From positions 358,884 to 422,883 of the forward strand of contig CP010425.1 of assembly GCA_000830295.1 (NCBI GenBank): a stretch of 64,000 bases of DNA. The letters run 5' to 3'. The stretch's first letter is position 1, and every line of letters starts with the position of its first letter. The position numbers were made by a program, and so were the translations under genes. Of this stretch, positions 35,220-47,336 are shown in pieces. The notes below the pieces were generated by a model that did not search any database, was not told the DNA's origin, and worked only from the letters and a program-made list of their open reading frames with translations. The DNA comes from an archaeon GW2011_AR15. GTDB lineage: Archaea; Nanobdellota; Nanobdellia; Woesearchaeales; GW2011-AR15.

Positions 35220-35651
35220 ATGACAGTCATAATCGTGACAGGGACTCCCGGGACAGGAAAGACCACGATAGCCAGGAAGATAGCCGGAGAGAAAAATCTC
35301 AAGTACATAGATGTGAATAAGCTTATTGAAGAACAGCATCTTTATGATGCCCTAGACTTTGACAGGGATTCCAAGATTGTAGATACTGGAAAGCTGAACA
35401 GGGCCCTTATAAAGATAATAAAAGAAGAGAAGGATGTTGTGATTGACTCGCACCTTTCCCACTATCTGCCGAAAAAATACGTGGATAAGTGCATAGTTAC
35501 CAAGTCCAGCCTTGAAGAACTGAAAAAAAGGCTGAAAAAAAGAGGATATAAGGAGGGCAAGATAAGGGAAAACCTCGATGCTGAAATATTTGACATATGC
35601 AGGATAGAAGCAGAGGAAGCAGGGCATGATGTTGAGGTTGTGCAGACCTAG
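35220..35651 (+). CDS. Adenylate kinase AK6/Fap7-type
   Basis: 143 aa. P-loop GTPGTGKTT (8-16), YIDVNKLIEE as NMP-binding part, VVIDSHLSHYLP near 73, and a lid region with KKRGYKEGKIRENLDAEIFD. This is the short AK6/Fap7 kind, which has adenylate kinase and ATPase activity and works in small-subunit maturation with uS11. That fits the nearby rio1 operon. Its TAG is followed at once by the opposing stop of the radical SAM gene, with no gap. Leaderless. Confidence 0.88.
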   Translation: MTVIIVTGTPGTGKTTIARKIAGEKNLKYIDVNKLIEEQHLYDALDFDRDSKIVDTGKLNRALIKIIKEEKDVVIDSHLSHYLPKKYVDKCIVTKSSLEELKKRLKKRGYKEGKIRENLDAEIFDICRIEAEEAGHDVEVVQT

Positions 35652-37190
35652 CTAGCCTGATTCGTCTTTATACCAGTGGTTGCTCAATTCTGTATCTGAA
35701 CTTGTCTGGTCTTGCTTCCTCAGTTTGACAGGCCCAAGCTCAAACGGGATGCCCGCATTTATGTCGGCTTCTGCCTGATTGACCAGAAGCGTTATCAGGT
35801 GGTCATATGAATCCATGAATCTGTCGTCACTCTTATCCAGATCTATGATTTTCCTGCTGGCTATGAATTCTTTAAGAATGTCTGCCATGGACTTATCTTC
35901 TGTTATCCTGCCGGCAATGAATTTCTGGTTTTCCGGCCTGTCTAAAAATCCTGCCTCTTTATAGAGGAATATGTCACCGTGGCTGTCCATGGCAACAGAT
36001 AGCTGGGGGTAGCCTGATTTTCTCATCTGGGTCCCCTTGACTCTTGCCAATGGCTTTCCCAGAATTCCTTCTCCCAGAGCCGCCATGGCATATCCGAAAT
36101 CAACGTGCATATCCGGGCACTCTTTCTCTCTTCTTTTATTGAACTCTGCAAACAGGGATATCAGCTCTTGCCTCTGCTCTTCTGTCAGGAAACCTTCCAG
36201 ATAATACTTCCTCCCCTCGACTGATTTGTCCACATCATCTTCTATCTCTGTAACGCTCCCGAAATCTTCCCTGATTGTAAGAAAATCAATTCCCGGCCCA
36301 TTGTCTACTTTAGAATTGACTTCATTGATATAATCAAGCAAGGGTAGTATTGTATGCATATTTTCAGGCAGGATAATGTAGTTGAGTCCTACTTTCAGGT
36401 TTGATTTCCTTTTGTTTCTCTCTTTCAGGAATTCTATTATGTTACCCTTAACCATTTCATAGGCCTGTGGATGCCTCGTGACATTGAATGTGGATTCCTG
36501 ATCTGTTCCATACAATGATACTCTTAATGAATCAAGATCCCAAAGCCCCGGCTGCATTGCCACATATTTAGGAGTAAGCATGTGGGCGTTTGTAATCAAA
36601 GGCACTTTATATCCCAGCTTTTTTGCATGGGTGATTATCTCACCCAATTTGAAATTTGTAAGCGGCTCAAGCCCTCCTGAGATTGATATCCTTGAGCCTT
36701 TTGGCAGCCCTGAAATGGCATCCTTAAACTTTTTTGCTCCTGATACCAATACCTCGCCAGGCTTGTAGCTCGCCTGCTGATTTCTGCCGCAAAAGCCGCA
36801 ATAATACATGCAGGACATGCCCGGAAACAACGTCAGGCGGAAAGGCAGCGCGTATTCATAATTCAGCACCTTGCTTATGTTGCCGCTGCTGACATGGGTC
36901 AGGATCGTGTTCCAGTATTTCTTGCCTAATCCTTCAAAAACTATCATTTGCTGTAAGAAATCAGAATTCTGGATTATGGCATTCAGCTCAATTAATTCTT
37001 GTTTTGATAATTCTGTGTCTTCAAGCAGCTGCTTTTGTGTGTACCAGGGCATTTCTGAAAGGTGATGGATTATCATTGAAGCAGGCACAATCCATTTTTC
37101 AGGAATACCTTCCTTAAGAAGAGTATTGGTTACGTGTGTGGGAATACCTGTTTGATATTCTTTATATAACCAGTCTTTAAAATTCTTCAT
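35652..37190 (-). CDS. Radical SAM enzyme of the DesII (dTDP-4-amino-4,6-dideoxyglucose ammonia-lyase) type
   Basis: 512 aa. Cluster site CX3CX2C at C127, C131, C134 in GMSCMYYCGFCGRN. Around it the DesII pattern is complete: RISISGGLEPLTN, ITNAHMLTPKYVAMQPGLWD, SLRVSLYGTD, GIDFLTIREDFG, VDFGYAMAALGEG, QLSVAMDSHGDIFLYKEAGF, and KFIAGRIT. DesII removes the C4 amino group of a dTDP-aminosugar in desosamine synthesis. The N-terminal 110 residues are helical as in DesII. No other dTDP-sugar gene is in the window, so the substrate may be a different activated aminosugar, perhaps for surface glycan. Promoter probably within the repeat at 37242-37266. Confidence 0.78.
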   Translation of the reverse strand: MKNFKDWLYKEYQTGIPTHVTNTLLKEGIPEKWIVPASMIIHHLSEMPWYTQKQLLEDTELSKQELIELNAIIQNSDFLQQMIVFEGLGKKYWNTILTHVSSGNISKVLNYEYALPFRLTLFPGMSCMYYCGFCGRNQQASYKPGEVLVSGAKKFKDAISGLPKGSRISISGGLEPLTNFKLGEIITHAKKLGYKVPLITNAHMLTPKYVAMQPGLWDLDSLRVSLYGTDQESTFNVTRHPQAYEMVKGNIIEFLKERNKRKSNLKVGLNYIILPENMHTILPLLDYINEVNSKVDNGPGIDFLTIREDFGSVTEIEDDVDKSVEGRKYYLEGFLTEEQRQELISLFAEFNKRREKECPDMHVDFGYAMAALGEGILGKPLARVKGTQMRKSGYPQLSVAMDSHGDIFLYKEAGFLDRPENQKFIAGRITEDKSMADILKEFIASRKIIDLDKSDDRFMDSYDHLITLLVNQAEADINAGIPFELGPVKLRKQDQTSSDTELSNHWYKDESG

Positions 37191-37273: not shown

Positions 37274-38203
37274 TTATTCAAGAATCTCAACGCTGTCTAT
37301 CTTCCCGTCGCCGTCCAGGTCAAATCCCTGCACAATTGCATGGAATTCCTTCTGGCCTGTAAACCTGTGTATGACCTGGCCTGTGTTTCTCGTGAAAGCG
37401 AATACAGCAGCCTTTGTGCCTATGAACCTTATGCCTGACAGCACAAGCACGAAATATTCCGGGTTATATGGGTTGGGAAGCCTGGATATCATGCCTATGC
37501 TCTCTTCTGTGTAAGTTGCTTTTTTTGTTATTATTCCCCACGGCTTCTTGTCTGAGAACTTCGCAGGCAGGAAATCGTTTATCTTGCTCACAACATGGTT
37601 TGTTACAGGCCCGCCGACCAGGATCAGATTTCTGCTCTCCTTTAGGTCAATATCAACATCCAGCTTTGTTGAGAAATTCTCATCCATGCTGCAAAGACCT
37701 CCTAAAAACAGGCCGAGGTCTATTGCGTAATGCCCGTCGCGCGCCCTTGCCTTGTGAGGGCCGTGCGGGTCAGGGGAGCCCACGACAATGCTGGCATTCA
37801 GCCTGTTGTTCTGTATGAACGGCTTCAGGAAATTCAGGGTTGTATCATCTTTCTTTTTAATGAGGGAAGCAAGAGGTTTCCATTCTTTTGACATTGTAAG
37901 GGCGAAATTAAGCTGTTTTGGGGAAAGCTTTTTGGCAACTGTGCCCCTTATCTCTTCCCTGCCAACAACATCAAGTATGCCGGAATTCATCATCTGCTTT
38001 ATGTGGTAATAGATTTTCTGCTCATGCATCTTCATCTCTTTTGCAAGCTCTGCAGGATACATCGGCTTTTTTGCCAGAAGCTCAAGAATCTGCATCCTTA
38101 TGGGATGATCTACAATCTTCAGGGCCTCCGGACTGTCAACTATGAGTGCGTCGCTGTAAAGCATGCTGCCGTCCCTTTCCTGCAATATATAGGATTTCAC
38201 CAT
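37274..38203 (-). CDS. Winged-helix regulator fused to S-layer-like C-terminal domain
   Basis: 309 aa. Residues about 25-100 are an ArsR-type winged helix: DHPIRMQILELLAKKP, YPAELAKEMKMHEQKIYYHI (recognition helix) and SGILDVVGREEIRGT. Residues about 125-300 resemble the C-terminal part of archaeal S-layer proteins: NLILVGGPVTNHVV near 200 and an EF-hand-like DLDGDGKIDSVEILE at 295-309 as the very end. No signal peptide or membrane helix, so the S-layer-like part is cytosolic. The palindrome at 38214-38229, between TATA box and start, suggests autoregulation. See finding. Confidence 0.7.
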   Translation of the reverse strand: MVKSYILQERDGSMLYSDALIVDSPEALKIVDHPIRMQILELLAKKPMYPAELAKEMKMHEQKIYYHIKQMMNSGILDVVGREEIRGTVAKKLSPKQLNFALTMSKEWKPLASLIKKKDDTTLNFLKPFIQNNRLNASIVVGSPDPHGPHKARARDGHYAIDLGLFLGGLCSMDENFSTKLDVDIDLKESRNLILVGGPVTNHVVSKINDFLPAKFSDKKPWGIITKKATYTEESIGMISRLPNPYNPEYFVLVLSGIRFIGTKAAVFAFTRNTGQVIHRFTGQKEFHAIVQGFDLDGDGKIDSVEILE

Positions 38204-38355: not shown

Positions 38356-39696
38356 ATGAAATTATTCGGAACAGACGGCATAAGAGGAGAGGCCAATAAA
38401 TTCCCTATTACCGGGGAAGTTGCCCTCAAGCTGGGCAAGGCTTTTGCCAAGGTAATGTCCAGAAACAAAAAGCCTGTTTTCCTTATAGGAAAGGATACAA
38501 GGCTTTCAGGCTACATGCTGGAATATGCACTTACTGCGGGGCTTACATCCATGGGCGCTGATGTCCTTCTTGCCGGCCCTCTTCCCACTCCCGGGGTTGC
38601 CTATCTGATAAGGGAATTCAGGGCAGATGCGGGCATAATGATAACTGCCTCCCACAATCCATACATAGACAACGGCATAAAATTATTTGATTCTGAAGGG
38701 AGAAAGCTGCCTGACAAAACAGAAGAAAAAATACAGGACCTTATCCTCAATCATAGGATTGACACTGCGCACGTGACTTCAAAAAACATAGGAAAGGCAA
38801 AAAGGATTGATGACGCTGCTTTGAGATATGCCCAGTATATCAAAGGAACAATAGATAACACCTCCCTGAAACCATTGAAGCTTGTGCTTGACTGCGCAAA
38901 CGGAGCTGCCTACAAGGTGGCTCCAATGGTTTTTTCAGAGCTCGGAGCTGATGTAACCACAATATTCAGCACACCGGACGGAAACAACATAAACAAGGGC
39001 TGCGGAGCCCTGCATCCTGAAGTTGTCAAAGAGGCTGTGCTGAAGCGCGGGGCAGATGCCGGAATAACGCTTGACGGCGATGCCGACAGGGTAATCATGG
39101 TCGACGAAACCGGAAAAATAATTGACGGGGACTACATGCTTGCAATCGCAGGCCTTTATATGATGGAAAAAAAGAAGCTGAAAAAAGACACTGTGGTTGC
39201 AACAGAATATTCCAATCTTGCTTTTGACGAGCTCATAGGAAAGAAAGGCGGAAATGTCGTAAGGTCAAAGAACGGCGACAGGTATGTCATTGAAGAAATG
39301 ATTAAAGGGGGCTACAATCTTGGCGGAGAGTTCTCAGGCCACCTGATTTTTTCAGACTACAATACAACAGGAGACGGGATAATTGCAGGAGCGCAGATAC
39401 TGAGGATAATGAAGGAAAAAAACAAAAAGCTCTCTGAGCTTGCTGCTGTGCTGCACAAGTACCCGCAGGTATTGATGAGCACCCCTGTGAAAGAAAAAAA
39501 GCCTTTTGAAGAAATGCCGAGCGTAATGAATGAAATAAAAAAAGCTGAAAAGGCTCTCGGAGACAAGGGAAGGCACCTGATAAGATATTCAGGCACTGAG
39601 ATGAAAGCAAGAGTCATGATAGAAGGCCAGAACGAAGAGCTTATAACAATGCTCTGCAGGGATATAATTTCAAAGATAAAAAATGAGGTGGCTTAA
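38356..39696 (+). CDS. glmM: Phosphoglucosamine mutase
   Basis: 446 aa, the family length. FGTDGIRG (4-11), phosphoserine S99 in TASHNPYIDNG, metal loop LDGDADRV near 236, sugar loop GGEFSGH near 325, and phosphate-binding RYSGTEMKARVM near 415. It converts glucosamine 6-phosphate to the 1-phosphate. The SGH sugar loop with the RYSGTE ending favours GlmM over phosphomannomutase. The operon neighbours GlmU and GlmS confirm the assignment. Its stop is two bases before the glmU ATG. Confidence 0.92.
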   Translation: MKLFGTDGIRGEANKFPITGEVALKLGKAFAKVMSRNKKPVFLIGKDTRLSGYMLEYALTAGLTSMGADVLLAGPLPTPGVAYLIREFRADAGIMITASHNPYIDNGIKLFDSEGRKLPDKTEEKIQDLILNHRIDTAHVTSKNIGKAKRIDDAALRYAQYIKGTIDNTSLKPLKLVLDCANGAAYKVAPMVFSELGADVTTIFSTPDGNNINKGCGALHPEVVKEAVLKRGADAGITLDGDADRVIMVDETGKIIDGDYMLAIAGLYMMEKKKLKKDTVVATEYSNLAFDELIGKKGGNVVRSKNGDRYVIEEMIKGGYNLGGEFSGHLIFSDYNTTGDGIIAGAQILRIMKEKNKKLSELAAVLHKYPQVLMSTPVKEKKPFEEMPSVMNEIKKAEKALGDKGRHLIRYSGTEMKARVMIEGQNEELITMLCRDIISKIKNEVA

Positions 39697-39697
39697 G

Positions 39698-40876
39698 ATG
39701 CAGGCAGTTATACTGGCAGCAGGAAAGGGAACAAGGACATATCCGCTTACTCTGGAAAAGCCAAAGCATCTGCTTAAAGTTGCGAACAGGACAATAATAG
39801 AGCATAATCTTGAGCAGCTGAAGGGCCTGGCTGATGAAATCCTGATTGTTGTGGGAAAAGAGAAATTCACAGAAAAACTTCTGGGAAATAATTACAAGGG
39901 TATCAGGATAAGGTATCTGATACAGGAAAAGCCTGAGGGAAACGGTCAGGCACTGATGATTGCCGAGAGATTCATCAAAGACAGGTTCATAGCAATGGTT
40001 GCTGATGACCTGTATTCAGGAAGCGACATAAAAAAATGCCTGAAGCACAGATACTGCGTCCTTGTAAAAGAAGTTGATGATCTTTCAAGGTTCGGCGAAG
40101 TAAGCCATAAAGGCAGCCTGGTTACAGGATTCATGGAAAAGCCAGGCAGGAAAAAAGGGCTTGCAAATACAGGGCTGCAGGTTTATGACAGGAAAATATT
40201 CTCCCACAGGCTGATGAAGTCAAAAAGGGGGGAATTTGAAATTGTGGATTACATAACATATCTTATTGAAAAAGGCGAAAAAGTGCATTATGAAAAAATA
40301 GCAGACTACTGGTTTCCCATAACTTATCCCTGGAGCCTGCTTGAAGCAAATGAGTTCCTTCTCTCAAAAATAAAGAAAGCAGTCGGCGGGGAGGTCGAGA
40401 AATATGCTGTGCTGAAAGGCCCTGTCGTTGTCGGAAAAGGCACGATAATAAAATCAGGCTCATACATTGAGGGCCCTGTCATCATAGGAGAAAACTGCAG
40501 CATCGGCCCGAACTGCTACATAAGGGCGCACAGCTCAATAGGAAACAGCTGCAAAATAGGGAATGCTGTTGAAGTGAAAAATACAATTGTCGGAGACAGG
40601 ACATCAATAGGCCACCTCAGCTATGCCGGCGATTCGGTAATAGGGGATGATGTCAATTTCGGCGCAGGAACAATCATTGCGAATTTAAGGCATGACGGAG
40701 AAAATATCTCCTCTCCTGTAAAAGGAGAGATGACTAATACAGGAAGAAAAAAATTCGGCGCGGTAATAGGGGATGGCGCAAAACTCGGGATAAAGACAAT
40801 AATATATCCCGGGAGAAAAATCTGGCCGGAAAAGACAACACTGCCGGGAGAGATAGTAAAGAGGGATGTGCAGTGA
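39698..40876 (+). CDS. glmU: Bifunctional GlcN-1-P acetyltransferase / UDP-GlcNAc pyrophosphorylase
   Basis: 392 aa. N-terminal nucleotidyltransferase: ILAAGKGTRTYPLTLEKPKHL (read as LAAGKGTR, then KPK), QEKPEGNGQA, and ADDLYSG as the metal site. C-terminal left-handed beta-helix from about 240: hexapeptide repeats IIKSGSYIEGPVIIGENC, HLSYAGDSVIGDDVNFGAGT, and acceptor region ANLRHDG. Makes UDP-GlcNAc from GlcN-1-P, acetyl-CoA and UTP, as with archaeal ST0452-like proteins. GAGGTGG six to seven bases before ATG 39698 supports this start; five codons upstream there is another ATG within glmM. Confidence 0.9.
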   Translation: MQAVILAAGKGTRTYPLTLEKPKHLLKVANRTIIEHNLEQLKGLADEILIVVGKEKFTEKLLGNNYKGIRIRYLIQEKPEGNGQALMIAERFIKDRFIAMVADDLYSGSDIKKCLKHRYCVLVKEVDDLSRFGEVSHKGSLVTGFMEKPGRKKGLANTGLQVYDRKIFSHRLMKSKRGEFEIVDYITYLIEKGEKVHYEKIADYWFPITYPWSLLEANEFLLSKIKKAVGGEVEKYAVLKGPVVVGKGTIIKSGSYIEGPVIIGENCSIGPNCYIRAHSSIGNSCKIGNAVEVKNTIVGDRTSIGHLSYAGDSVIGDDVNFGAGTIIANLRHDGENISSPVKGEMTNTGRKKFGAVIGDGAKLGIKTIIYPGRKIWPEKTTLPGEIVKRDVQ

Positions 40877-41733
40877 AAAACAGGGGAGAGATCTATATCC
40901 TGCTTACTGCACTTATAATCTCAACGTTCGGCATTTTCATAAGGGAGCTCGACAAGGAAGTTCCGCCTATAGCACAGGTCTCGCTTAGGTTCATGATAGC
41001 TGCTATAATTTATTTTGTACTGTTCGCAAAAGACAGGGCTTACCTGAAAATCACGAAGCCGCAGTTTTTCAAATTGCTGATTGCCGGGTTTCTCGCATAC
41101 GGCGTGATGGTTGTGCTGTTTGTATTATCATATCTCAACACGAGCTATGCCAATGCGTCCGCATTCACGAGCATGACCCCGCTGTTTGCAGGGATATTCG
41201 GCTGGATGCTGCTAAGGGAAAAAATAACAAACAGCAAGATTATCGCATTGCTGCTTTCTGTCTCCGGAGTCATGATAATTTTCAGGCCTGATTTTTCTAA
41301 TTTCGACATCGGCATTGCATATGGCATTGCCTGTGCCCTGCTCTACGGGCTTTATTTCACAATCATAAGAAGCTTTAAGAAAGATGACTGGAAAACATCA
41401 GCTTTCTATGTCCCCCTTTTTGCAGGATTTCTCCTTTTTCCTTTTGTGCTTATATTTGAAACAACAAGCTTCAGCTACAGCCTGACAACCTGGATTTACA
41501 TAATAATAATGTCCCTGCTGAATGTTGCTGTGCTGTTTTTTCTTAACAGGGGGATGCAGACAGTTGAGGCCGGTGTCGGCGGGATACTCTCATCCTCAGT
41601 TATTGTATTCGGAAGCATAATCAGTATATTGGTCTATCGCGAACTGCCTTCCCTGGCTGAATTGGCAGGGTATGCTTTCATACTGCTTGCAGTCGTAGCT
41701 GTGCATCTGAAATTCAAAAAAGGTGATCGATAA
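40873..41733 (+). CDS. EamA/DMT transporter inside the UDP-GlcNAc operon
   Basis: 286 aa, ten predicted membrane segments in two repeats. TFGIFIRELDKEVPPIAQ in the first loop, ANASAFTSMTPLFAGIFG at the end of repeat one, and GGILSSSVIVFGSIISI in repeat two. It starts with GTG at 40873, overlapping glmU by 4 bases, and its stop shares one base with the glmS ATG. This tight placing suggests a substrate linked to GlcNAc metabolism (amino sugar, precursor or lipid carrier), which is inference. It is distinct in sequence from the EamA protein at 2464-3348. Confidence 0.82.
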   Translation: MKNRGEIYILLTALIISTFGIFIRELDKEVPPIAQVSLRFMIAAIIYFVLFAKDRAYLKITKPQFFKLLIAGFLAYGVMVVLFVLSYLNTSYANASAFTSMTPLFAGIFGWMLLREKITNSKIIALLLSVSGVMIIFRPDFSNFDIGIAYGIACALLYGLYFTIIRSFKKDDWKTSAFYVPLFAGFLLFPFVLIFETTSFSYSLTTWIYIIIMSLLNVAVLFFLNRGMQTVEAGVGGILSSSVIVFGSIISILVYRELPSLAELAGYAFILLAVVAVHLKFKKGDR

Positions 41734-43442
41734 TGTGCGGAATTGTAGGAATGGTTTCTGCTGATGAGTTTTACGCAAGGGAAGCAGTGCAGAGGCTGAA
41801 AAGGCTGGAATACAGGGGATATGACTCATTCGGATATTATTATGACGGAAAGCTGTTCAAGAAAACAGGCCACATAATTGTCCCGGAGACAAAAGACAGG
41901 ACCAAAATGATAATAACGCACACAAGGTGGGCGACTCACGGCGGTGTAACTGATGCCAATGCCCATCCCCACAGGGCAGGAAAGGTTACAATAGTGCACA
42001 ACGGCATAATTGAAAATTATGAAGAGCTGAGGGAAGGGCTGAAAGAAAAGGGGCGTGTGTTCAGCAGCGAGACAGATTCAGAGGTCGCTGCGCATTATTT
42101 CGATGAGAAGCTGAAGACAAAACCAATGAAAGAGGCGTGCGTTGACTTCATTAAGGATATTAAAGGCGAATTTGCAATACTTGTTATGATAGACAGGGAG
42201 GATACTCTGTATGCGCTGAGAAGGGATTCCCCGATGGTATTGGGAGTCGGGGAAAACATAAACATACTTGCATCTGATATCTATGCTTTCTCTGATGTCA
42301 CAAGCAAGGCCATATTTTTTGAGAATGATGAGTTCGCTGCTGTGAAAAGCGGCTCTTACACTTTCTATGATAGGCACGGAAAAGAAATAAAAAAGAAAAT
42401 CCAGCAGTTCAAGTGGGAGCAGGAGGAGTCAACCCGTGAAGAGTATGAGCATTTCATGCTGAAAGAGATAATGGAAGAGCCGAAAGCTGTCAGGAGGCTG
42501 ATACTGAGCCTGGAGACGGAGCAGAAGGAAAATTTCGGCAAATTCGTAAAGCTCATGAAAGAATCAAGGAAAGTCACTTTTGTCGCCTCAGGAACGAGCT
42601 ATCACGCTTCCCTTCTCGGCGTGTATTACCTGCACAAGTGCGGTGTCGAGGCCCAGACAATAATTGCCTCAGAGTTTGAGCATTTTGTGGGCGTTGACAG
42701 GAACACCCTGGTTGTGGCAATATCGCAGTCAGGAGAGACAATGGATGTTATTGAAGCGCTGAAATATGCAAAAAAGAACAGGGCAAAAATCGCCTCTATT
42801 GTTAATGTGCCGTATTCAACTGTGCAGAGGATGTCAGAAATCTCCCTGAATATTGTGGCCGGCCAGGAAATATGCGTTGCTGCGACAAAATCTTTTGTCA
42901 ATCAGGTAACCCTTATGCTGAGCATTGCCAGGGAATTCGGGTTCAGGATAAATACAAGCAACATTCCGGGCAAGATAGAGAAGATATTCAGGCAGAAAGA
43001 CAAGATAGAGAAAATGGCGAAGGAACTCAACAGGCACAATGATATCTATGTCCTGGGCCGGGGCCTGAGCTATCCTGTTGCAAGGGAGATTGCCCTGAAA
43101 ATAAAAGAGATATCATACATGCACGCAGAAGGAATGATGGGCGGAGAGCTGAAACATGGAACAATAGCCTTGATTGAAAAAGGCACACCAGTTATTGGAC
43201 TGATAAGCAACAAAGATTATGACATGCTCTCAAACATAAAAGAGGTTGAGGCAAGGGGGGCCCATGTAATAAAAATCACAAATGAGATGAAAGGAGATTT
43301 CATGGTCGATACTTCAAACGACGGAAAATTCGGGATACTTGCGACCATAGTGGGCCAGCTTCTTACATATTATGTTGCGAAAGAAAGGGGGCTGCCTATT
43401 GACAAGCCGAGAAACCTCGCGAAAAGCGTGACAGTCAAATGA
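41733..43442 (+). CDS. glmS: Glutamine-fructose-6-phosphate aminotransferase (isomerizing)
   Basis: 569 aa. Glutaminase domain begins MCGIVGM with nucleophile C2, and has RLEYRGYDS, HTRWATHGG and HNGIIENY. Two SIS domains follow: FVASGTSYHAS near 287 and VLGRGLSYPVAREIALK near 434 with LKEISYMHAEG. It ends in the conserved LAKSVTVK. Makes glucosamine 6-phosphate from fructose 6-phosphate and glutamine, feeding GlmM and GlmU. ATG shares a base with the transporter stop; its own stop overlaps the methyltransferase start by 4 bases. Confidence 0.95.
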   Translation: MCGIVGMVSADEFYAREAVQRLKRLEYRGYDSFGYYYDGKLFKKTGHIIVPETKDRTKMIITHTRWATHGGVTDANAHPHRAGKVTIVHNGIIENYEELREGLKEKGRVFSSETDSEVAAHYFDEKLKTKPMKEACVDFIKDIKGEFAILVMIDREDTLYALRRDSPMVLGVGENINILASDIYAFSDVTSKAIFFENDEFAAVKSGSYTFYDRHGKEIKKKIQQFKWEQEESTREEYEHFMLKEIMEEPKAVRRLILSLETEQKENFGKFVKLMKESRKVTFVASGTSYHASLLGVYYLHKCGVEAQTIIASEFEHFVGVDRNTLVVAISQSGETMDVIEALKYAKKNRAKIASIVNVPYSTVQRMSEISLNIVAGQEICVAATKSFVNQVTLMLSIAREFGFRINTSNIPGKIEKIFRQKDKIEKMAKELNRHNDIYVLGRGLSYPVAREIALKIKEISYMHAEGMMGGELKHGTIALIEKGTPVIGLISNKDYDMLSNIKEVEARGAHVIKITNEMKGDFMVDTSNDGKFGILATIVGQLLTYYVAKERGLPIDKPRNLAKSVTVK

Positions 43443-45677: not shown

Positions 45678-47336
45678 ATGGGGGGATTTTTTAAGATAAA
45701 CGAGAAGCATGCACCTTATATACTGTTTGCTATTTTTATGCTGGGATTATTACTTTATCTGAATCTTGACGACGTGCCTCTGACACACCCCGGCAATATT
45801 AAAGCGGCAGACCCTTTCTATCATGTGTTGGCCGCAGAAAGCATAATAGATACCCAGCAGTGGGAGTACTACGACCTCTATATTTCCCTCGGAACTGAAA
45901 GAGCTTCAAGTGTCCAGCCTCCTCTCAATTATCTGAATTCAGCGATCCTTACACTATTTTCTGGCGTGCCCGCTTGGGTGACTCTGTATTTTATTATTTG
46001 TCTGTTTTTTGCATTTTTCATATTACTTGTATATCTTATAGTCATCGAGATTTTTGGTGACTGGAAAATTGCCCTTTTAGCTTCTGCTGCATCAATACTT
46101 CCCATTCCTGTTCATGTCTGGCTCTACAGTCTTTATATCGGACTGTGGCTACAGGTTTTTTCAAATGTTTTCATGCTGGCTTTCCTCTGGATGTTTATAA
46201 GATACCTAAAAAAAGACGGACATCCGGAGCTGTTTTTTATGGGGCTCTGTTTGACAGGCATTATGCTTGTTCATCCGCAGGATCTCAGCATCATGCTGCT
46301 ACCTTCGCTGATTGTCGGCTGGAAAATACTGCAAAAGCATCTTGTGAAAAAAGAGTTTGCAAAGCTTGTGAAAGAAGCCGTGCTGTTTGGTGCATTGCCG
46401 GTTATTGTGCTGCTGGTCCTTCTTCCAACCTTCCTGTTTGTATGGAAAGCACACGGAGCACAACAATTCAATATCGGATTTTATGGCGTAAGAGAAAATT
46501 TCTTTTCAAGAAATTACACCGGCGGCCTGGTGTATCCTGATATCTTTTTTATGCCATGGATAGTTCTGGTGATACTGGGAGTCGGAATATTGCAGATGAT
46601 CGCTAATGCAAAAAAATACAAGATTTTCCTATATACGCTTCTCTATTTTTTCATTGTAGCCTATATTTCCGCGCTTATATTCAGCGACCCTTATTATTTT
46701 GTAAGAATGAGGACCATGACTCCTTTTCTGGTAATCCCTGTTGTTGCATACACCATGGTATATTTTATTGAAAAATACATGAAGGACAAATCCTGGCACA
46801 TGCCTGCAATAGCCCTGGTAGCTGTCTTGTTTATTATTTCCGGATTTGTACAATACAATAAACTTGTTCCGCAACTTAGTGGGGAACATATAAGCATGGA
46901 TGAATGGGAAGCCTACCGATGGATTCATGAAAACACAGAAAAAACTGACAGAATACTGTTTTTTGGATCTGTATTCCAGCAGGAGTTTCTCTACACGAAA
47001 AGAATGGTCGCTGCTATTGACATGAATGAATACCAAAGATTGTTGACAGAATATCTTGCAACCAACAGGACAAGCCTGTTCTTTACAGGAATGTATGGAG
47101 GAGACACTTTAAGGTCTGTGCATAAAGTTAAGAATTCATATTTCTCATACGGAACCTATTCCGAACCGAATTCAACATTATACCTCCTGGATTTTGATTA
47201 TGTTTTCTTCCAGGACATATCACAGCAGGTTGCTCAGGCAAATTATTTGTTTGGAAATGAGTTCATAAATAATTACGGATTTAGCCTCGTGTACAATAAA
47301 AACGGGTATATTATAATAAAAAATGGCCAAAAATAA
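45678..47336 (+). CDS. GT-C membrane protein, distant STT3-like
   Basis: 552 aa with about twelve membrane segments and a 140-residue outer C-terminal domain. The first outer loop has KAADPFYHVLAAE, like the DPYYH-type motif of STT3 and GT-C enzymes, but no WWDYG is seen. LVHPQDLSIMLLP in the middle is another recurring element. Probably uses polyprenyl-linked sugar outside. The C-terminal part (EAYRWIHENTEKTDRILFFG) matches other GT-C genes in this window. The next small membrane gene overlaps it by 14 bases. Confidence 0.7.
   Translation: MGGFFKINEKHAPYILFAIFMLGLLLYLNLDDVPLTHPGNIKAADPFYHVLAAESIIDTQQWEYYDLYISLGTERASSVQPPLNYLNSAILTLFSGVPAWVTLYFIICLFFAFFILLVYLIVIEIFGDWKIALLASAASILPIPVHVWLYSLYIGLWLQVFSNVFMLAFLWMFIRYLKKDGHPELFFMGLCLTGIMLVHPQDLSIMLLPSLIVGWKILQKHLVKKEFAKLVKEAVLFGALPVIVLLVLLPTFLFVWKAHGAQQFNIGFYGVRENFFSRNYTGGLVYPDIFFMPWIVLVILGVGILQMIANAKKYKIFLYTLLYFFIVAYISALIFSDPYYFVRMRTMTPFLVIPVVAYTMVYFIEKYMKDKSWHMPAIALVAVLFIISGFVQYNKLVPQLSGEHISMDEWEAYRWIHENTEKTDRILFFGSVFQQEFLYTKRMVAAIDMNEYQRLLTEYLATNRTSLFFTGMYGGDTLRSVHKVKNSYFSYGTYSEPNSTLYLLDFDYVFFQDISQQVAQANYLFGNEFINNYGFSLVYNKNGYIIIKNGQK

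Follow-up and report, generated by a model that had tools for sequence, protein, structure and literature searches.

In actinomycetes, DesII has been investigated for its part in the biosynthesis of macrolide sugars. A substrate of the DesII type requires a 4-keto-6-deoxy precursor and an aminotransferase. The enzyme of Streptomyces venezuelae is a TDP-4-amino-4,6-dideoxy-D-glucose ammonia-lyase that is represented by the family TIGR04426 and by the structures PDB 8hzv/8hzy (PMC11434129). Its GGE motif binds the Met part of SAM, a flexible loop (residues 323-337) covers SAM, the role of general base has been proposed for E408, and activity depends on D456, since the D456A variant is inactive; a ternary structure was not obtained (PMC11434129). 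DesII also oxidises a 4-hydroxy analogue rather than eliminating from it (PMC11434129). In the open-access literature that we searched, no DesII-like enzyme is described in phages or archaea, nor is the marine clade to which the archaeal enzyme reported here belongs.

Results

A DesII-like enzyme in an archaeon

The ORF at 35652-37190 of the window (the whole 64-kb stretch of DNA that was analysed) is on the minus strand and encodes a radical SAM protein of 512 aa, P0001. The earlier note had given exactly these borders, with no mention of the strand, and the motifs it quoted are all in the translation: CMYYCGFC (CX3CX2C, aa 127-134), ISGGLEPLTN, MQPGLWDLDS, IREDFG, DFGYAMAALGEG and MDSHGDIFLYKEAGF. 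The host is an archaeon, as that note held. An artefact or contamination is ruled out, because the 1.16-Mb chromosome is a single contig, its GC content here is normal, and the conserved genes that flank P0001 lie close to each other in a sister species as well.

In a profile search, TIGR04426 (DesII) matches aa 41-480 of P0001 with 320.8 bits (E=1.4e-95). This is below the equivalog cutoff of 450 bits, which three annotated Streptomyces DesII proteins exceed with 768-856 bits, and for this reason the reaction and the substrate may have shifted. The sole strong match among solved structures is DesII (PDB 8hzv, E=6.6e-68). The AlphaFold model of P0001 (pLDDT 81, pTM 0.83) superposes on DesII with TM values of 0.80/0.85 over 470-489 alignment columns, while all other structures reach about 0.4 or less by query length. 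Both the profile and the fold match show that the DesII architecture around the radical SAM domain spans nearly the whole chain. The earlier note had allowed for a better match to a different radical SAM family; the profile search found none, with the runner-up at only 44 bits, and together with the fold comparison this rules out another family. Searches of the annotated phages of INPHARED and of PHROGs with P0001 gave no match, and no Rfam family was found within the 64-kb window. It is well supported by these comparisons that P0001 is a DesII-type radical enzyme homologous to DesII. The DesII-type reading of the earlier note thus stands as regards homology, fold and catalytic residues; P0001 is, however, not DesII itself, since its score stays below the equivalog cutoff and its place is in a sister clade.

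Catalytic residues and the active-site loop

P0001 was aligned in a set of 15 sequences, where the chain numbering of 8hzv is that of the DesII paper (PMC11434129). The alignment with DesII that the earlier note had proposed as a check shows that 13 of the 14 SAM-binding and catalytic positions tested are kept (C141, C145, C148, G187-E190, R238, S240, Y242, D323, E408 and D456). The sole change is Tyr324 to Phe, and this position is Phe across the entire marine clade. The [4Fe-4S] motif CX3CX2C (36789-36812, minus strand, as are all features of the enzyme given here) supplies C127, C131 and C134, the equivalents of C141, C145 and C148 of DesII, and the ribose motif R223/S225/Y227 (36510-36524) corresponds to R238/S240/Y242, with the roles described in PMC11434129. 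P0001 has four Cys in all; three belong to the cluster motif, which fits a single [4Fe-4S] cluster. The GGE motif GGLEPLTN (aa 172-179; 36654-36677) aligns with G187-E190 of DesII and the residues that follow. E412 (35955-35957) and D460 (35811-35813), the counterparts of E408 and D456, are both invariant in 15/15 sequences.

P0001 also departs from DesII in the active-site loop after IREDF (aa 311-334; 36189-36260), which by alignment is about 17 residues longer than in DesII and is modelled with low confidence (pLDDT below 50 at aa 311-318 and 325-332). As its counterpart covers SAM, the extra residues may bear on substrate choice. In the same alignment, 25 fixed differences separate the marine clade from Streptomyces DesII.

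Judging from the sequence, P0001 probably carries out DesII-type radical chemistry on a nucleotide sugar. The best explanation, to which we incline by a modest measure, is that it is a radical ammonia-lyase of the DesII type that acts on a nucleotide-linked 4-amino sugar; 4-deamination as such is likewise only somewhat favoured. In this reaction, a reduced [4Fe-4S] cluster on C127/C131/C134 would cleave SAM, and the 5'-deoxyadenosyl radical would abstract the C3' hydrogen of the sugar. E412 and D460 would shuttle protons, and ammonia would be lost from C4' to give an NDP-3-keto-4-deoxy sugar.

A sister clade of DesII in marine phages and bacteria

P0001 lies within a sister clade of DesII that is marked by the longer active-site loop and whose members come from T4-like marine phages, Prochlorococcus and Pelagibacter. 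Its identity is 54-55% to the Prochlorococcus proteins, 44-50% to those of Pelagibacteraceae and 54-68% to those on marine IMG/VR contigs; the search of genome contigs used patterns from one sequence, which misses distant relatives. Seven further members that were tested score 326-358 bits against TIGR04426, all below 450. In the tree, the separation of the marine clade from Streptomyces DesII is fully supported, and the archaeal sequence falls inside the marine clade, together with Prochlorococcus and three phages, with support of 90/94, short of the strict standard. Several viral contigs carry T4-like genes, including a DNA polymerase, a clamp loader, a UvsX-like recombinase, a DnaB-like helicase and a major head protein. 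We infer that these contigs are marine from the cellular relatives and the gene content, not from sample records.

Chromosomal setting

A search of 145 relatives and of 371 genomes of the phylum gave no second genome with the P0001 gene, and an inherited archaeal gene is therefore not supported. To its left is an AAA_18/adenylate-kinase-like gene (35220-35651, plus strand) with a 62% identical counterpart in the sister species (G002). To its right is a protein with an ArsR-type HTH and an S_layer_C domain (37274-38203, minus strand), which is 62-73% identical in 7/9 members of the genus and family and stands beside GlmM in most relatives examined. Between the same borders (RIO1 and the AAA_18 kinase on one side; the HTH/S-layer protein, GlmM and GlmU on the other) the sister species has an EamA-type transporter and a Maf-like gene instead, as named from their sequences. 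The spot is thus variable and differs between lineages, most simply through an insertion. The GC content of the gene (43.1%) is like that of its neighbours (43.8%), so that its arrival was not very recent or the donor had a similar background. A provirus location is not supported: the P0001 gene stands among conserved housekeeping genes, away from the genes that accompany its phage counterparts.

Beyond the right border, at 38356-43442 (plus strand), are GlmM, GlmU-like and GlmS genes for UDP-GlcNAc synthesis and an EamA transporter, all conserved neighbours in relatives. The nearness of GlmM/GlmU/GlmS as a clue to the substrate is ruled out, because the order is kept in relatives that lack a DesII-like gene: the same HTH gene precedes GlmM and GlmU in both G002 and G001, neither of which has one. 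Further along, the 552-aa ORF at 45678-47336 has no Pfam match at E 0.001.

Partner genes

A Gfo/Idh oxidoreductase gene is present at 14 of 14 marine loci, in glycan clusters; it adjoins the DesII-like gene in 12, and is one gene off in L013 and two genes off in L003. At eight of the ten phage loci the Gfo/Idh comes with a DAO-type flavoprotein, mostly as a fusion; L009 has the DesII-like gene between Gfo and DAO. The flavoprotein fold resembles that of sarcosine/glycine oxidases. Its profile has no match in the Pelagibacter and Prochlorococcus genomes, several of which are partial, and Gfo/Idh is thus the constant partner. In the archaeon, a Gfo/Idh gene (C1:498108-498980) adjoins a flavoprotein gene (C1:499016-500089) about 100 kb from the P0001 gene. 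Identity of the archaeal flavoprotein is 43-51% with the phage proteins encoded near DesII-like genes and 26-33% with the few that occur in archaeal relatives. The archaeal Gfo resembles that of phages only distantly (25-39% identity). A dedicated unit of DesII and flavoprotein is weakened as an idea by a wider survey, in which 57 of 66 viral flavoprotein loci have a Gfo and only 9 have DesII-like genes; since the pair occurs mostly without DesII in phages, it is not dedicated to the DesII-like enzyme. The Gfo/Idh-DAO fusion, of about 580 aa, is itself widespread in these viral contigs (L089-L154; 49/66 fused, 8 with a separate Gfo), usually beside glycosyltransferase-like genes. Where the DesII-like enzyme is present, Gfo/Idh would then reduce the ketone, and the two enzymes together would strip the C4 function of a sugar destined for a surface glycan.

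Other genes at these loci were also observed. In Prochlorococcus AG-402-I21 (L003:11699-14357), genes for a cupin, a C-methyltransferase (PF08421/PF08484) and Gfo/Idh come after the DesII-like gene, a set suggesting a branched deoxy sugar. PIG-L/LmbE de-N-acetylase-like genes occur in phage glycan clusters that carry DesII-like genes (L007:15242-15838, L010:11291-12244 and L062:7369-7992, the last directly upstream of the DesII-like gene) and could free the amine for the lyase. Near DesII-like genes and Gmd, four phage loci encode DegT proteins in which His replaces the PLP lysine (HHMSTIEGG), a feature of the ColD/RfbH 3-dehydratases (L007:4404-5585, L008:2493-3674, L061:4213-5394, L062:3792-4967), and from these sequences the phages may make 3,6-dideoxy sugars.

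The phage records with DesII-like genes show no 4-aminotransferase, only a ColD/RfbH-type DegT or none, and as His replaces Lys in these DegT proteins, the source of the amine in phages is unexplained. This speaks for the possibility that the clade has drifted to another radical outcome on a nucleotide sugar that has no 4-amino group. The enzyme, partnered by Gfo/Idh, would then dehydrogenate the sugar to a 3-keto form or dehydrate it. DesII offers a precedent, because it oxidises TDP-quinovose instead of eliminating and partly dehydrates TDP-fucose (PMC11434129), and a dehydrogenase role is thus possible for P0001; the 25 fixed differences and the longer loop are in line with such a shift. 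Against it, the equivalents of E408 and D456 are invariant, and DegT proteins that retain the PLP lysine are present in the archaeon and in several cellular relatives. We regard this drift as rather unlikely.

Nucleotide-sugar genes and the candidate substrate

The earlier note had described the genome as one with heavy surface glycosylation, and a large glycan island is indeed present. It spans about 38 kb (G000:C1:482670-521084; L034-L036), which is unusual for a 1.16-Mb archaeon, and holds Gmd, two DegT aminotransferases, a formyltransferase, a flippase-like protein, many glycosyltransferase-like genes and, as read from sequence, heptose-type genes (GmhA-, HldE- and GmhB-like). The Gfo/Idh and flavoprotein genes are in this island; the P0001 gene lies outside it, which counts against the proposed role.

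The same note saw no other dTDP-sugar genes within view, and this absence extends to the whole genome: no dTDP-glucose 4,6-dehydratase reaches the cutoff (best RmlB score 192.6 vs 365), and the matches to the DesI model have 218 and 176 bits against a cutoff of 650. P0001 could still be a true dTDP-4-amino-4,6-dideoxyglucose ammonia-lyase if the dTDP pathway were too diverged to score, and a glucose-1-phosphate thymidylyltransferase-like protein (226 vs 320 bits) and the SDRs that reach up to 192.6 bits can be read in that way. We consider this very improbable, as none of the SDRs read among the matches (ten loci, one of which reads ASSASIYG) has the TDE active-site signature of RmlB, and the marine relatives tested all score far below true DesII.

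Gmd (C1:494148-495203) is the only confident hexose 4,6-dehydratase of the genome (563.6 bits vs a cutoff of 415). It lies in the same strand run as the formyltransferase and an aminotransferase (C1:491564-492661) that has the PLP lysine. Among solved structures, this aminotransferase is nearest to an unnamed sugar aminotransferase, followed by perosamine synthetases (E about 4e-69), but it reaches no equivalog cutoff. Gmd, a perosamine-synthetase-like aminotransferase and a formyltransferase are what is expected for a GDP-(N-formyl)perosamine pathway. Gmd is also present in five phage loci with DesII-like genes. Our leading guess for the archaeon, a tentative one, is that the substrate would be GDP-4-amino-4,6-dideoxy-D-mannose (GDP-perosamine), which Gmd and the nearby aminotransferase would supply, with a GDP-4,6-dideoxyhexose as the product.

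The earlier note had preferred a UDP-aminosugar. This is not the best-supported substrate, because Gmd is specific for GDP-mannose and no PseB/WbpM-type UDP-GlcNAc 4,6-dehydratase scores well (no match to PF02719 above 61 bits). A UDP-linked 4-amino sugar could instead be a 4-amino-4-deoxypentose, formed by a UDP-xylose-synthase-like SDR and the second aminotransferase. That DegT protein (G000:C1:502271-503479) keeps the PLP lysine, is closest to the PseC/ArnB models (328 and 296 bits, below the cutoffs) and finds ArnB among its top structural matches (E=1.3e-69); the UXS-like SDR at 520065 has an acidic residue at the active site, and UDP-sugar dehydrogenase-like ORFs are also in the island. 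Against a UDP-linked substrate, the known substrate of DesII is a 6-deoxyhexose, and five phage loci carry Gmd. We regard an ammonia-lyase for a UDP-linked sugar as rather unlikely, and we retain GDP-perosamine as the candidate.

Discussion

What is new here is the clade together with its context (marine phages, SAR11, Prochlorococcus and one archaeon; Gfo/Idh; GDP-sugar genes), not the class of chemistry. The earlier note was silent on the link to marine phages, SAR11 and Prochlorococcus, on the Gfo/Idh partner and on the species-specific insertion. If a conserved sister clade serves T4-like phages, an archaeon and bacteria that abound in the ocean, then radical SAM aminosugar elimination would also be a tool for cell-surface or phage glycans, possibly on GDP-sugars. 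The clade is also a natural set of variants for asking what fixes the substrate and the split between lyase and dehydrogenase. At its widest, the proposal is a radical SAM deoxygenation module spread by phages, in which a DesII sister clade acting on GDP-perosamine is common to marine T4-like phages, SAR11, Prochlorococcus and a small archaeon. This speculative reading, which in its entirety is doubtful, predicts an unreported sugar in the archaeal surface glycan, of the 4,6-dideoxymannose type, by a route not described before.

Comparison with known systems

P0001 shares with DesII the whole-chain fold, CX3CX2C as the single cluster motif, GGLE, the ribose motif and the equivalents of E408 and D456. 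It differs in sequence (36% identity over the aligned part), in Y324F, in the loop longer by about 17 residues, and in a genome with GDP- rather than dTDP-sugar genes.

Two annotated macrolide clusters on Streptomyces plasmids (S. griseofuscus pSGRIFU1 and Streptomyces sp. NBC_01224) encode a DesI-type aminotransferase, DesII and Gfo/Idh in a stretch of about 6 kb. Both are presumably for D-chalcose, and we take the Gfo/Idh there to be a 3-ketoreductase. As in the marine loci, Gfo/Idh is near DesII, which here adjoins the aminotransferase. Unlike them, the Streptomyces Gfo/Idh is full-length (324 aa), with marine and archaeal Gfo/Idh matching it over short stretches only at 18-38%, and the sugar is for a macrolide, not a surface glycan.

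AprD3 is the ketone reductase partner of AprD4. The pair resembles the proposed one in that a radical elimination gives a ketone that a reductase takes up, whereas the radical SAM subfamily, the substrate and the reductase are different; AprD4 is a radical SAM diol dehydratase (discussed in PMC11434129). Viperin and BlsE, the next structural matches, have the radical SAM core in common with P0001, with TM only about 0.4 by query length.

The closest system is the marine clade. Its partner genes are adjacent, whereas those of the archaeon are distant on the chromosome; in sequence (44-68% identity), in the long loop and in the Gfo/Idh partner, the two are alike.
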